From positions 1 through 38,065 of the forward strand of contig DASYUT010000155.1 of the NCBI GenBank assembly GCA_036000965.1: DNA of 38,065 nt, given 5' to 3'. A model generated the notes under the pieces. The model was not told the origin of the DNA and did no database searches. It worked only from the letters and a program-made list of their open reading frames with translations. Positions 1,544 through 37,604 of this stretch are shown here, piece after piece. The translations under genes were made by a program, and so were the position numbers. Source of the DNA: Actinomycetes bacterium (GTDB lineage: Bacteria > Actinomycetota > CALGFH01). Each line of letters begins with the position of its first letter. Position 1 is the first letter of the stretch.

Positions 1544-2635
1544 TCAGCTCCGGGCCTCGCCGGGCCCGGGCGCGGCCGCTCGCGGCTTCCGGTGCCGGTT
1601 CGAGCGGCGGGGGGCCCGACGCCCCACCCCGGGAGCGATCGGCAGGTTGGGGTCGGCGCCCAGGTCGAGCGGGGCGCGCTCGCCCCGCTCGAGCGCGAAC
1701 GTGCCGGCGCAGGCGACCATGGCGCCGTTGTCGGTGCACAGCGCCGGGGAGGGCACCAGGACTCGGACCCCCGCGTCGCGGGCCGCCTCGAGCAGCCGCC
1801 AGCGCAGCCGCGAGTTGGCCGCCACGCCGCCGGCGAGCAGCACGGTGTCGAGCCCCTCGCGCTTGGCCGCGCCCAGCACCTTGCTCACCTGGACGTCGAC
1901 CACGGCCTCCTGGAACGACGCGGCAACGTCGGCCACGCGCAGCTCCTCGCCGGCCTCCTCGACCTTGCGCACGTGGCGGAGCACGGCGGTCTTCAGGCCG
2001 GACAGCGAGAAGTCGTCGGTGCCGTCGTCGAGCAGGGCACGTGGGAAGCGGACCGCGCCCGGGTCGCCCTCCTTGGCCAGCTCGTCCAGGATCGGACCGC
2101 CCGGGTACCCCAGCCCGAGCACCCTGGCCACCTTGTCGTAGGCCTCGCCGGCGGCGTCGTCGATGGTCTGGCCGAGGACCCGGAACCGCTCGTCGGCCTC
2201 CGCGACCAGCAGGCTCGTGTGACCGCCGGAGACCACGAACACCACAGCGGGCAGCGGCAGCGGGCCGTGCTCGAGCACGTTGGCGTAGACGTGGGCGATC
2301 AGGTGGTTGACCCCGACCAGGGGGCGGTCCAGGGCGAGGGCGTACGCCTTGGCCGCGGCCACCCCCACCAGCAGCGAGCCGGCCAGGCCGGGCCCGATGG
2401 TCACCGCGAAGCCGTCGACGTCCTCGAGCCTCGCCCCGCCGAGCGCGAGGGCCTGCTCGACCGCGGGGTGCAGCAGGTCGACATGGGCCCGGGAAGCCAC
2501 CTCGGGCACCACCCCGCCGTAGCGGTCGTGCAGGGTCCGCTGGTCGGCGACCACGTTCGAGCGCACCCGCCGGCCGTCCTCGACCAGCGCGACGCCGGTC
2601 TCGTCGCAGCTCGTCTCGATCCCGAGGACCAGCAT
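1544..2635 (-). CDS. tsaD: tRNA threonylcarbamoyladenosine transferase TsaD
   Basis: Transfers the threonylcarbamoyl group to A37 of ANN-decoding tRNAs (t6A), working with TsaB and TsaE. The 363-residue protein starts MLVLGIETSCDET, has the metal-binding HLIAH (His111 and His115), SGGHTSLL, DDAAGEAYDKVAR, and the C-terminal ASKHA-fold signatures LAGGVAANSRLR and CTDNGAM. About 25 residues rich in Arg, Pro and Ala extend past the usual end. The ATG at 2635 follows GGAGGGGAGGC, which is carried by an 80-bp element also found before rplX. It is downstream of rimI and a repeat-built open frame. The antisense frames over it are shadows. Confidence 0.97.
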   Translation of the reverse strand: MLVLGIETSCDETGVALVEDGRRVRSNVVADQRTLHDRYGGVVPEVASRAHVDLLHPAVEQALALGGARLEDVDGFAVTIGPGLAGSLLVGVAAAKAYALALDRPLVGVNHLIAHVYANVLEHGPLPLPAVVFVVSGGHTSLLVAEADERFRVLGQTIDDAAGEAYDKVARVLGLGYPGGPILDELAKEGDPGAVRFPRALLDDGTDDFSLSGLKTAVLRHVRKVEEAGEELRVADVAASFQEAVVDVQVSKVLGAAKREGLDTVLLAGGVAANSRLRWRLLEAARDAGVRVLVPSPALCTDNGAMVACAGTFALERGERAPLDLGADPNLPIAPGVGRRAPRRSNRHRKPRAAAPGPGEARS

Positions 2636-2637
2636 GG

Positions 2638-2874
2638 CTACTGCCTCCCCTCCAGACGTCCGCCCGGCCGGCGCCTGGCCGGGGTGGACGACGCCTCGGC
2701 GTGGCCGTCACGGGAACCCGGCAGCGACCGGACGAGCCTCGCCGGAGTCGGCATCAACGCACCTGCCGGGGCTGGCATCAACGCACCTGCCTGAGTCGGC
2801 ATCGGCGCACCTCGCGGGGCTGGCATCGGCGCACCTGCCAGGGCTGGCATCGGCGCACCTCGCGGGGTCGGCAT
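2638..2874 (-). other. 78-codon repeat-built open frame filling the rimI-tsaD gap (coding status unknown)
   Basis: An ATG overlaps the rimI stop codon as TGATG, and the frame runs to a TAG two bases before the tsaD ATG. The first half is made of six 24-bp repeats, each giving eight residues like GAPMPAPR, so the product would begin MPTPRGAPMPALAGAPMP and end RRRPGGRLEGRQ. Every repeat also reproduces a GAGG or AGG ending and an ATG. The exact fit between two genes and the in-frame repeat length are what one would expect of a translated coupling peptide, but a GC-rich repeat with no stop codons could give the same picture by chance. No known domain is seen. Confidence 0.3.
2643..2722 (-). repeat. 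Dispersed intergenic element, copy A (before tsaD)
   Basis: This 80-bp stretch aligns without gaps to 31804-31883, with 63 of 80 positions identical and 36 of 40 in the half nearest the gene. It ends with GGAGGC exactly seven bases before the tsaD start codon, so it supplies the ribosome binding site. It contains the GC-rich inverted repeat around GGCGCCGGCC. It overlaps the non-repeat part of the 78-codon open frame. Confidence 0.8.
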
Positions 2875-2891
2875 CAGCGCACCTCGCGGGG
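2748..2891. repeat. Tandem array, six 24-bp units, across the rimI 3' end
   Basis: Six head-to-tail 24-bp copies begin at 2748, 2772, 2796, 2820, 2844 and 2868. The plus-strand unit is close to CTGGCATCGGCGCACCTCG followed by CGGGG, with two to five differences between copies. The last copy covers the final codons and the TGA of rimI, so the array looks like repeated copying of the gene's 3' end into the gap. There are no spacers, so it is not a CRISPR array. Confidence 0.93.
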
Positions 2892-3440
2892 CTCTGGGAT
2901 GCGGCGGGCCAGCTCGCCCAGGCGGGCGGTGTACGCGGAGGTCTGCAGGCCCTCGGCCCACATGATGAGCGCGTCCTCGCCGGTCTCGGCGTAGTAGTTC
3001 TTGCGGATGCCGACCGGCGCGAAGCCGAACTGGTGGTACAGGCCCTGGGCGGCGTGGTTGGCCACCCGCACCTCGAGCGTGCAGGCGGTCGCGCCCCTGC
3101 GCCTGGCCTCGGCGACCAGCGCGAACAGCAGCCGGGCGGCGATCTTGCGCCGGTGCTGGTCGGGGTCGACCGCGATGTTGGTGACGTGCGCCTCGTCGCC
3201 GAAGACCATCAGGCCGGCGTAGCCCACCACCCGGCGGTGGGCCCGGGCGACGATGTAGTAGCGGGTCGAGCGCTGGACGATCTCAGAAAGGAACAGGGTC
3301 ATCGTCCACGGGCGCGGGTAGACGCGGCGCTCGATGTCGAGCACCTGACCGATGTGGCGCCGGCGCATGACGGTCAGCTCGATGGCGGCCGGCGGGCGGG
3401 GGCCCTCGACCTGGCCCGGCGGTGGGTACAGGGAAGCCAA
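2874..3440 (-). CDS. rimI: RimI-like GNAT N-acetyltransferase
   Basis: Member of the GNAT fold; RimI acetylates the N-terminal alanine of ribosomal protein S18 in Escherichia coli, and here the target is inferred. The 188-residue product has the acetyl-CoA region AVDPDQHRRKIAARLL (about 91-106), VANHAAQGLYHQFGF and the RKNYY segment usual for RimI. It is longer than the usual 150 residues, with about 20 extra at the N terminus and some at the C terminus. The start is TTG at 3440, seven bases after AGGAG and two bases after the tsaB stop, so translation is coupled to tsaB. The tsaB-rimI-tsaD order is the common actinobacterial arrangement. Its last codons lie inside the 24-bp tandem array. Confidence 0.92.
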   Translation of the reverse strand: MASLYPPPGQVEGPRPPAAIELTVMRRRHIGQVLDIERRVYPRPWTMTLFLSEIVQRSTRYYIVARAHRRVVGYAGLMVFGDEAHVTNIAVDPDQHRRKIAARLLFALVAEARRRGATACTLEVRVANHAAQGLYHQFGFAPVGIRKNYYAETGEDALIMWAEGLQTSAYTARLGELARRIPEPREVR

Positions 3441-28216: not shown

Positions 28217-28401
28217 TCCTTCACCTCCTCCACCTCGACGAGGTGGGAGACCTTGTGCAGCATGCCGCGGATCTCGGGGCGGTCCTCCTTGACGACCACG
28301 TCGTGGATGCGCCTGAGGCCGAGGCCCCGGATCGTGTCACGCTGCGGCTTGGGCCGGCCGATCACGGAACGGACCTGGGTGACCTTGAGCCGGGCGCTCA
28401 T
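28213..28401 (-). CDS. rpmD: 50S ribosomal protein L30
   Basis: Small large-subunit protein, 62 residues, with [20 protein letters not shown] and [20 protein letters not shown], then [14 protein letters not shown]: all L30 hallmarks. The ATG at 28401 overlaps the rpsE stop as ATGA, and its own stop overlaps rplO, so the three genes are translationally coupled. Length is normal. Confidence 0.97.
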
Positions 28402-29033
28402 GCCGACGCCTCCTTGGGCGGCGTCTTGACCGCAGCTGCGGCCTTCATCCGGGCCACGGTGGTGGGAGACATCTCGGCCAGCTCGAGCCCGCGCCGCTGG
28501 GCCAGCTCCTCGGGCCGCTTCAGCGACTTGAGCCCGGCCACGGTCGCGTGGACGATGTTGATCGGGTTGGACGAGCCGAGCGACTTGGACAGCACGTCGG
28601 CCACGCCAGCCGCCTCGAGCACCGCGCGCACCGGCCCGCCGGCGATGACGCCGGTACCGGGGGATGCGGGCTTGAGCAGGACGCGGCCGGCGCCGTCCTC
28701 ACCGAGCACCTCGTGCGGGATGGTGGTGCCGATCATCGGGACGGCGAAGAAGTTCTTCTTGGCCACCTCGACGCCCTTCTGGATGGCAGAGGGGACCTCG
28801 CGGGCCTTGCCATAGCCGACGCCGACCTTGCCGTTGCCGTCGCCGACCACGACCAGGGCGGTGAAGGAGAACCGGCGTCCACCCTTGACCACCTTGGCGA
28901 CGCGGTTGATGGCGACCACGCGCTCTTCGAACTGCGACTTCGGGGAGTCGTCCCGGCCAGGGCCACCGCGGTCGTCACGGGGCGGCCGGTTGCCCTGTCC
29001 ACCGGGACCCCGGCGAGCGGGGGCTGCTGCCAT
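28398..29033 (-). CDS. rpsE: 30S ribosomal protein S5
   Basis: Small-subunit body protein that affects decoding accuracy. The 211-residue product has a Pro/Arg/Gly-rich N terminus (1-30), [58 protein letters not shown], then [20 protein letters not shown] and [19 protein letters not shown], ending in an Ala/Lys-rich tail about 25 residues past the core. ATG at 29033 follows AAGGAGGAAT. It is separated from rplR by a 169-nt gap filled with three REP-like repeats, unusual inside the spc operon. Confidence 0.97.
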
Positions 29034-29051
29034 GTTGCGATTCCTCCTTTA

Positions 29052-29191
29052 TCGGTCCGGGGCTACCGCCTTCGGCTACTTGAGCCCCGAACCCCCTTTG
29101 TCGGTCCGGGGCTACCACCTTCGGCTACTTGAGCCCCGAACCCCCTTTGTCGGTCCGGGGCTACCGCTTCGCTGCGCCAGGCCCCCAGACC
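29052..29191. repeat. Three tandem REP-like hairpin units between rplR and rpsE
   Basis: Two nearly identical 49-bp units (29052-29100 and 29101-29149, one difference seen) are followed by a shorter, diverged third (29150-29191). Each can pair GGTCCGGGGCT with AGCCCCGAACC, with an inner GCC-TTC-GGC stem. The third carries CTACCGCTTCGCTGC, shared with the hairpin between rpoA and rplQ. Confidence 0.92.
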
Positions 29192-29202
29192 CTGATGTCT
29201 GT

Positions 29203-31481: not shown

Positions 31482-31796
31482 TCAGAGCTTCGCGCCGGTC
31501 CTGGCGCACACTCGGATCTTGTTGCCGTCGTCCATCCGGTAGGCGACACGGGTCGGCTTGCCGTCGTCGGGCGAGACGATCTGGACGTTCGACGCGTCGA
31601 TCCAGGCTTCCTTCTCGGTGATCCCGCCGGTCTGGCCGCCGCGCTGCGTCGGCCGGATCTTCTCGTGCCGCTTCACACGGTTGACGCCCTCGACCAGCAC
31701 CCGGTTCTTGGCCGGGTCGACCTTGATCACGCGGCCGGTGGCCCCGATGTCCTTGCCGGCCATGACGATCACGCGGTCGTCCTTGCGGATCTTCAC
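31482..31796 (-). CDS. rplX: 50S ribosomal protein L24
   Basis: Assembly-initiating large-subunit protein with a KOW motif. The 104-residue product has [20 protein letters not shown] (2-21), [40 protein letters not shown] and ends [11 protein letters not shown]. The start is GTG at 31796, seven bases after GGAGGC, which belongs to a dispersed element shared with the tsaD upstream region. The gap to rplN is 118 nt, long for this operon. Confidence 0.97.
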
Positions 31797-31803
31797 GGCG
31801 AGA

Positions 31804-31883
31804 GCCTCCCTTCCAAACGTCTGCCCGGCCGGCGCCTCGCCGGAACGGGCGTCGCCGCAGCCTGGAGGCCATGGGAGCCCGGC
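31804..31883 (-). repeat. Dispersed intergenic element, copy B (before rplX)
   Basis: Ungapped match of 63 of 80 bases to 2643-2722 before tsaD. It again ends in GGAGGC seven bases before the start codon. Next to it, 31877-31894 (GCCCGGCGCCGGCCGGGC) is a near-perfect palindrome. The remaining part of the gap up to the rplN stop at 31915 has no other feature. Confidence 0.8.
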
Positions 31884-31914
31884 GCCGGCCGGGCATGCCT
31901 TGCCGCTGTCGCCA

Positions 31915-32283
31915 CTAAAGCACCTCCGGGGCCAGGCTGATGATCTTCATGAAGCGCTTGTCGCGCAGCTCCCGCCCGACCGGGCCGAAGATGCGCGTGC
32001 CGCGCGGGTTCTGCTGCTCGTTGATGATGACGGCGGCGTTCTCGTCGAACCGGATGTAGGAGCCGTCAGGGCGCCGCTTCTGCTTCTTGACGCGGACGAC
32101 GACCGCCTTGACGACCTCGCCCTCCTTCACCGCGCCACCCGGGATCGCGTCCTTCACCGTCGCGACGATGATGTCGCCGATGGAGGCGTACCGCCGGCCG
32201 GAGCCGCCGAGCACGCGGATGCAGAGGATCTCCTTCGCGCCCGTGTTGTCGGCGACCTTGAGCCGCGACTCCTGCTGAATCAT
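31915..32283 (-). CDS. rplN: 50S ribosomal protein L14
   Basis: Large-subunit interface protein that forms bridges to 16S rRNA. The 122-residue product has [60 protein letters not shown] and [20 protein letters not shown], and ends SLAPEVL. ATG at 32283; the upstream sequence has only a weak AGAGG site. It follows rpsQ across a 65-nt gap containing a perfect hairpin, and is followed by rplX. Confidence 0.98.
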
Positions 32284-36861: not shown

Positions 36862-37604
36862 CAGCCACGCACCTCCTTGGCTGACCCGGGGGCCGGCCTT
36901 GAGCCCCCGGACCCCTGGGCTGACCCGGGGGCCGGCCTTGAGCCCCCGGACCCGTGCGACCGGACGGAGGAGCGAAGCATGAGCAGGCCGCGCTTGGGAC
37001 CGGGCACGGCGCCGCGGACCAGCAACAGGTTGCGGTCCGGGTCGACCTTGACGACCTCGAGGTTGAGCACGGTGACGCGCTCGTGGCCCATGTGCCCGGC
37101 CATGCGCATGCCCTTGAAGATGCGGCCCGGGGTGGCGCAGGCGCCGACCGAGCCGGGCGAGCGGTGCTTGCGCTCGGTGCCGTGCGAGGCCGGAAGGCCG
37201 GCGAAGCCGTGGCGCTTCATGACCCCGGCGGTGCCCTTGCCCTTGGAGACGCCGACCACGTCGACCCGGTCGCCCGAGGCGAACACGTCCGCCTTGAGCT
37301 GCTGGCCGGGCGAGTAGTCGCCGGCCGAGGCCGTGCGCAGCTCGACCAGGTGGCGCTTGGGCTCGGACCCGGCCTTGGCGAAGTGCCCGGCCCGCGGCTT
37401 GGTCACCTTGCGGGACGCGATGTCGCCGAAAGCGAGCTGGACGGCTGGGTAGCCGTCGCGCTCGACCGACTTCACCTGCGTCACCGTGCAGGGCCCGGCC
37501 TGGATGACCGTCACCGGCACCACGCGGGCGTTCTCGTCGAACACCTGGGTCATCCCCAGCTTGGTCCCGAGGATGCCCTTGAAGTTGGCGGTTGTGGCAC
37601 TCAT
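36861..37604 (-). CDS. rplC: 50S ribosomal protein L3 with duplicated C-terminal tail
   Basis: Early assembly protein near the peptidyl-transferase centre. The 247-residue product has [20 protein letters not shown] (8-27), [73 protein letters not shown] and [20 protein letters not shown]. After the normal end ([20 protein letters not shown]) it carries two 13-residue copies of [14 protein letters not shown] from a 39-bp duplication. ATG at 37604 overlaps the rpsJ stop as ATGA. Confidence 0.97.
36879..36955. repeat. 39-bp tandem duplication with hairpins at the rplC 3' end
   Basis: Copies begin at 36879 and 36918 and share GGCTGACCCGGGGGCCGGCC and the following TTGAGCCCCCGGACCC. Each can pair CCGGGGGC with GCCCCCGG, the stem of the REP-like family, yet both lie inside the rplC reading frame (13 codons each). 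The second copy in the list is the one nearer the L3 core. Confidence 0.9.

Follow-up and report, generated by a model that had tools for sequence, protein, structure and literature searches.

A palindromic, MITE-like element at operon stop codons of an actinomycete that may carry translation across its own insertion

Short palindromes of the REP/BIME type are 20-40 bp long and are mobilised by a RAYT transposase. Mycobacterial interspersed repetitive units (MIRUs), the subject of Supply et al. 1997, reportedly use DTGA as their target site. As described in PMC12548453 and PMC3635867, MIRUs form a class of interspersed repeats; they are mobile, insert at start codons and carry an ORF that is coupled to the gene, so that the insertion is softened (PMC12548453). 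The RUP element of Streptococcus pneumoniae is a 107-bp MITE with a TA target that has stops in all six frames and is thought to be moved by an IS630 transposase, that of IS630-Spn1 (PMC2229807). The Correia/NEMIS and Rickettsia palindromic elements are MITEs found near or within genes, and some of them have open frames fused to host genes (PMC2229807, PMC10969869). A literature search for MITEs linking the stop of one gene to the start of the next turned up MIRUs as the only close description.

The DNA considered here is a window of 38,065 nucleotides (the whole stretch that was analysed) from a draft actinomycete genome with an estimated contamination of 4%. A sequence-only reading had pointed out that the leaders of tsaD and rplX are alike, and this was borne out: aligned without gaps they match at 63 of 80 bases and at 36 of the 40 next to the gene, against a background at all other window positions that averages 25.7 (sd 4.2) with a best unrelated score of 46, and with blastn the alignment reaches 111 bp (76% identity, E 8e-18). 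Both copies lie on the minus strand, where, as had also been stated, GGAGGC is followed by 7 nt and then by the ATG of tsaD or the GTG of rplX. The 80-bp extent given earlier reflected a real match, but the true feature is longer at both sites (Table 1). The insert at rplX begins with the last base of the rplN TAG stop (31915) and stops just short of the rplX start, and that at tsaD takes in a 24-bp tandem array as far as 2874, the site of the rimI stop, with the last units of the array extending into the 3′ end of rimI. According to Pfam the gene order on the minus strand is rplN then rplX, and rimI then tsaD. Each 24-bp unit of the tsaD array contains an ATG and an AGGTG-like stretch.

Table 1. 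Positions of the two element copies, their bridging frames and the neighbouring genes within the window
Feature	Positions	Strand	Remarks
Element core, 114 nt, GTGGC...CTC, inside rplN TAG stop, upstream of rplX	31802..31915	-	Empty site in G001, G002
Bridging ORF, 40 codons, rplX	31793..31915	-	GTG start overlaps rplN stop (TAGTG); TGA stop overlaps rplX start (GTGA)
Shine-Dalgarno GGAAGGGAGG from the element's right end	31805..31814	-	8 nt before rplX GTG; anti-SD duplex
GGAGGTG within rplN 3′ end	31921..31927	-	Native rplX SD in sister genus; here 5 nt ahead of the element's GTG
rplX, ribosomal protein L24, downstream gene	31482..31796	-	Pfam PF17136
rplN, ribosomal protein L14, upstream gene, with the insertion in its TAG stop	31915..32283	-	Pfam PF00238
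Element core, 114 nt, upstream of tsaD	2641..2754	-	
24-bp tandem array, 6.3 copies, made from the element's left end	2741..2892	-	In frame with bridging ORF
Bridging ORF, 78 codons, tsaD	2638..2874	-	ATG overlaps rimI TGA stop (TGATG); TAG end 2 nt before tsaD ATG
Shine-Dalgarno GGAGGGGAGG from the element's right end	2644..2653	-	8 nt before tsaD ATG; anti-SD duplex
tsaD, downstream gene	1544..2635	-	Pfam PF00814
rimI-like GNAT acetyltransferase, upstream gene	2874..3440	-	Pfam PF00583

The earlier reading had looked to a genome-wide search for further copies, and the two leaders proved to be members of an element family with about 17 dispersed loci. For this census each single copy and, after that, a sequence model built from twelve copies served as queries against the whole genome (6.47 Mb, 358 contigs). 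One element copy is shared by the overlapping ends of contigs C291 and C29 and was counted once. These two contigs (loci L036 and L038) are probably adjacent, the assembly having broken inside the copy. Several loci contain internal tandem repeats, and some are reduced to one end. Mean pairwise identity among twelve aligned copies is 77% and the maximum is 92%, so the family appears to be old. With a cutoff of E 1e-5 the sequence model matched nothing in 295 other genomes of the phylum, a sample that includes two relatives of the same taxonomic family (G001 and G002), both of another genus. A search with TsaD returned distant hits only, the best at 59% identity, and the source is probably an actinobacterial lineage of which few relatives have been sequenced.

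Comparison with these relatives, which had likewise been proposed, shows the element to be missing, with insertion boundaries, at five sites. The rplN/rplX, rpsP/khpA, def/fmt and nuoB/nuoC junctions are empty in both relatives and the rimI/tsaD junction is empty in one of them, G002; Pfam confirms NuoB, NuoC, KhpA, S16, deformylase and Fmt as flanking products. At rplN/rplX both relatives lack the element and read GTGCTGTAG directly followed by CCGTGAAG (in longer form, GAGGTGCTGTAG followed by CCGTGAAG), as opposed to the 118 bp that separate the TAG stop from the GTG here. The native junction at all five empty sites consists of a TAG stop that overlaps the next start or precedes it by no more than about 10 nt. 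With these sites empty in the relatives, the element is an insertion, placed at the TAG stop that ends the upstream gene and shortly ahead of the following start codon. Both its mobility and its choice of site have good support, and the earlier suggestion of a small mobile or copied element is upheld by the number of loci, the empty sister-genus sites and the palindromic termini. That suggestion had not extended to the stop-codon insertion, the palindrome or the bridging frame.

In most copies the left boundary of the element is a stop codon of a same-strand gene: a TAG stop at rplX, otsA (C346b), C133b, def (C213), C78a, C253a and C288, and a TGA stop at the tsaD copy, nuoB (C51), rpsP (C164) and probably C332, while at three sites (C133a, C133b and C288) the TAG stop of a convergent neighbour forms the right boundary. 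The right end has a C before TAG where rplX, fmt and khpA natively have a G, so this C belongs to the element. A target duplication of TA(G) is visible yet degenerate and amounts to at most 3 bp; the rplX copy is flanked by TTAG on the left and CTCG on the right, and the choice among TA, TAG and CTAG rests on few sites. A strict 4-bp CTAG duplication was set aside, given the native G before TAG at three sites and the C at the right end. By symmetry, the element would comprise GTGGC...GCCAC with TA on one side and TA(G) on the other, the layout of IS630/Tc1-type MITEs, with the duplicated bases since decayed, and its transposition would be the work of a Tc1/IS630-like enzyme. CTAG occurs at 0.26 per kb in about 150 kb sampled, about tenfold rarer than base composition predicts, and 10 of the 36 CTAG sites examined lie at stops of coding-like frames; a preference for TAG/CTAG would therefore steer the element to gene ends. 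The element may target the TA inside TAG or CTAG, and in a G+C-rich genome a TAG at the insertion point would usually be a stop codon.

The consensus core is an end-to-end imperfect palindrome of 114 nt, 5′-TA/GTGGC...GCCAC/TAG-3′ (slashes mark its ends), in which 34 of the first 50 bases equal the reverse complement, compared with 15.8 (sd 3.1) in shuffles. Its termini are CTAGTGGC and GCCACTAG, its inner arms are CTGCCCGG(Y)CGGCGCC, and the ends expected of any parent IS are GTGGCGACCCC and GGGGAGCCAC. Folding of the consensus RNA, another of the checks first suggested, yields a single hairpin that spans the whole length (z -5.3), and one pair of its arms reads U-A in place of C-G in 4 of 12 copies; the two window copies, being diverged, fold barely better than shuffles (z -1.6 and -0.9). 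Such a palindrome between TA and TAG fits a MITE. The family is short and dispersed and has no transposase coding, its only ORF being one of 38 codons; it has terminal inverted repeats in the consensus ends and inner arms that form the hairpin; and it occupies five sites that are empty in relatives, with a target duplication that is degenerate. Ends matching those of the element were absent from the genome's four best DDE_3 (IS630-type) loci, and no parent IS630 element was found among them. The parent of a MITE may be lost.

The length of the core is exactly 38 codons. Insertion at the TA of TAG produces TAGTG, which restores the stop and adds a GTG start overlapping it (TGATG in some copies), and no copy measured at both ends has an in-frame stop; in the C291/C29 copy, whose co-oriented neighbours stand farther apart, codon 20 is a stop. 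The TAG or TGA that closes the frame falls between -4 and +4 nt from the start of the downstream gene: at nuoC a TAG directly adjoins the GTG, and at khpA the TAG lies 4 nt before the ATG. In the fmt copy (C213, L039) the frame to TAG is lost and the ORF continues in frame into fmt. If translated from TAGTG, Fmt may gain an N-terminal extension of ~60 residues. The arrangement known from MIRUs, an operon-junction repeat with an ORF coupled to the flanking genes, is present at rplX, tsaD, nuoC, khpA and fmt as a matter of geometry only. Among copies enlarged by repeats, the length is divisible by 3 in five of six at co-oriented sites (tsaD, nuoC, khpA, C346b and C180) and in none of the three that are reversed or lie between divergent or convergent genes (C346a, C133a and C294). 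The test of frame keeping (P 0.018 against 1/3; Fisher 0.048) and that of orientation given below involve few copies and were framed after the data were seen. Divergence by codon position is nearly flat (0.22, 0.20 and 0.24) and gives no sign of selection on the peptide, which is therefore not conserved as such. Chance often leaves a frame of 38 codons open in G+C-rich DNA.

The right end of the element is purine-rich (GGAGGGGAG) and forms a new Shine-Dalgarno (SD) sequence for the downstream gene. The earlier statement that the leader supplies the ribosome binding site of two genes was right as to the supply, but it undercounted the gene starts, of which there are five. The anti-SD duplex is stronger with the element than with the native sequence of the sister genus at all five: -11.6 versus -10.8 kcal/mol at rplX, -11.2 versus -6.6 at tsaD, -9.8 versus -8.4 at nuoC, -11.3 versus -2.6 at khpA and -8.5 versus -4.6 at fmt. 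A reversed element would offer only -5.7 kcal/mol. The native SD of rplX (GGAGGTG) lies within rplN in relatives, and after the insertion it stands just upstream of the element's GTG. Wherever a full copy separates co-directional genes that lie close together, it has the orientation of the genes (six of six, or eight of eight when left-end remnants are added, P 0.004); the exception among co-directional pairs is C294, which is reversed, upstream of dnaK, in a wide gap. The orientation could stem from the asymmetric TAG target instead of from selection.

It is considered probable that both leaders are copies of a non-autonomous, MITE-like element that preserves translational coupling across its own insertion. 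On landing in the stop codon of the upstream operon gene, the first bases of the element would restore the stop and add an overlapping GTG start, at which a ribosome that has finished the upstream gene could re-initiate and read through the element. Translation of the element would open the hairpin that otherwise sequesters the new SD, and the ribosome could then re-initiate on the downstream gene by means of that SD. Translation of the ORF and selection for translational coupling are here inferred from sequence. The chances are about even that the whole design holds, namely a transposable element built as a portable translation bridge with stop-codon insertion, its own ORF, hairpin opening and hand-over to its own SD. 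Should it hold, the element could spread at little cost within essential operons, those for ribosomal proteins, complex I and tRNA modification, and downstream initiation could even rise.

A simpler account, unlikely though not negligible, takes the family for an ordinary MITE that ends by chance in an SD, is untranslated and survives by virtue of the ribosome binding site at its right end, with the frame a by-product of high G+C content. SD strength alone would account for both tolerance and orientation, the flat codon-position divergence agrees with an untranslated element, and the frame evidence comes from few copies. It is harder to reconcile this account with an intrinsic length of exactly 38 codons whose start and stop abut the flanking stop and start, with the enlarged copies, which are mostly in frame at co-oriented pairs and out of frame elsewhere, and with the fmt copy, which, having lost the frame to TAG, reads in frame into fmt instead. 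The element with a translated, coupled frame is retained as the preferred reading, and the start codon, ribosome binding site and short frame that it brings seem to be why it is tolerated between packed essential genes.

A shared regulatory leader had also been put forward. It might be a conserved cis-acting site for, say, a ribosomal-protein or stress regulator common to a regulon, and several copies do precede translation-related genes (rplX, khpA, fmt and tsaD). Copies in gene leaders in the same orientation are found at the five gene starts, but others lie between convergent genes or, reversed, upstream of dnaK, which tells against shared regulation. The window has no Rfam match, the candidate conserved RNA leader being rejected on this ground and on its absence from relatives. 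With the same genes lacking the leader in two relatives, the regulatory reading is largely refuted by the empty sites and is now very improbable. Such leaders and short ORFs are to be annotated as insertions, not as conserved regulatory leaders.

The element is classed here as MITE-like and as working like a MIRU, an assignment that claims membership of neither the MIRUs nor an IS630-derived group. In common with MIRUs, as judged from published descriptions, it is a small dispersed repeat at operon-gene junctions with tandem expansions and an ORF end apparently coupled to its neighbour, so that expression would be kept. Unlike MIRUs, it hits the upstream TAG stop (the native sites in relatives are TAG at all five loci, not DTGA), is an end-to-end palindrome with terminal inverted repeats, brings its own SD and has been detected in one species only. 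Descent from MIRUs, as distinct from analogy, would explain the shared logic of a short mobile repeat at operon stop/start junctions with an ORF coupled to its neighbour (PMC12548453) and the tandem copy-number variation, but it is hardly credible given a sequence model without a match in the 295 other genomes of the phylum and a strong terminal palindrome and TAG target that differ from MIRUs. The likeness suggests, by analogy, that a second lineage came to the strategy of MIRUs independently, here with termini of the MITE type.

In anatomy the nearest system is RUP, which is likewise intergenic, about 110 bp long and equipped with terminal inverted repeats and a TA-containing target; it differs in its stops in all six frames, in having no reported ribosome binding role and in its known parent IS, none having been found for the present family among the best IS630-type loci. 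The family may thus be said, by analogy, to combine MIRU function with RUP anatomy. The Correia/NEMIS and Rickettsia elements are palindromic MITEs as well and show in-frame fusion as at fmt here, but they become joined to coding regions or serve as RNase III sites, whereas the present family has a separate short ORF bridging stop and start. REP/BIME palindromes differ in size, the present element being about three times longer. Insertions in essential operons are normally lethal or polar, and this family, for which relatives provide the empty sites, shows a route into junctions like that of rplN and rplX: the element lands in a stop codon and brings a start, frame, stop and SD sequence. Whether mobile elements are shaped by selection for translational coupling can be tested directly on it.

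Other repeats occur at operon junctions of the window. On the minus strand at 29034-29202, upstream of the ORF at 28398-29033, 49-bp units are repeated 2.4 times and end in AAAGGAGG before an ATG; this junction is taken as rplR/rpsE by position only, and seven other places in the genome match the repeat in part. Several repeat families placed at operon junctions in this way seem to be present in the genome. At 36869-36960, also on the minus strand and probably at the rplC/rplD junction, there are two 39-bp units, with five matches at other places, that continue the upstream gene in frame as its last part and close with TGATG over the next start.
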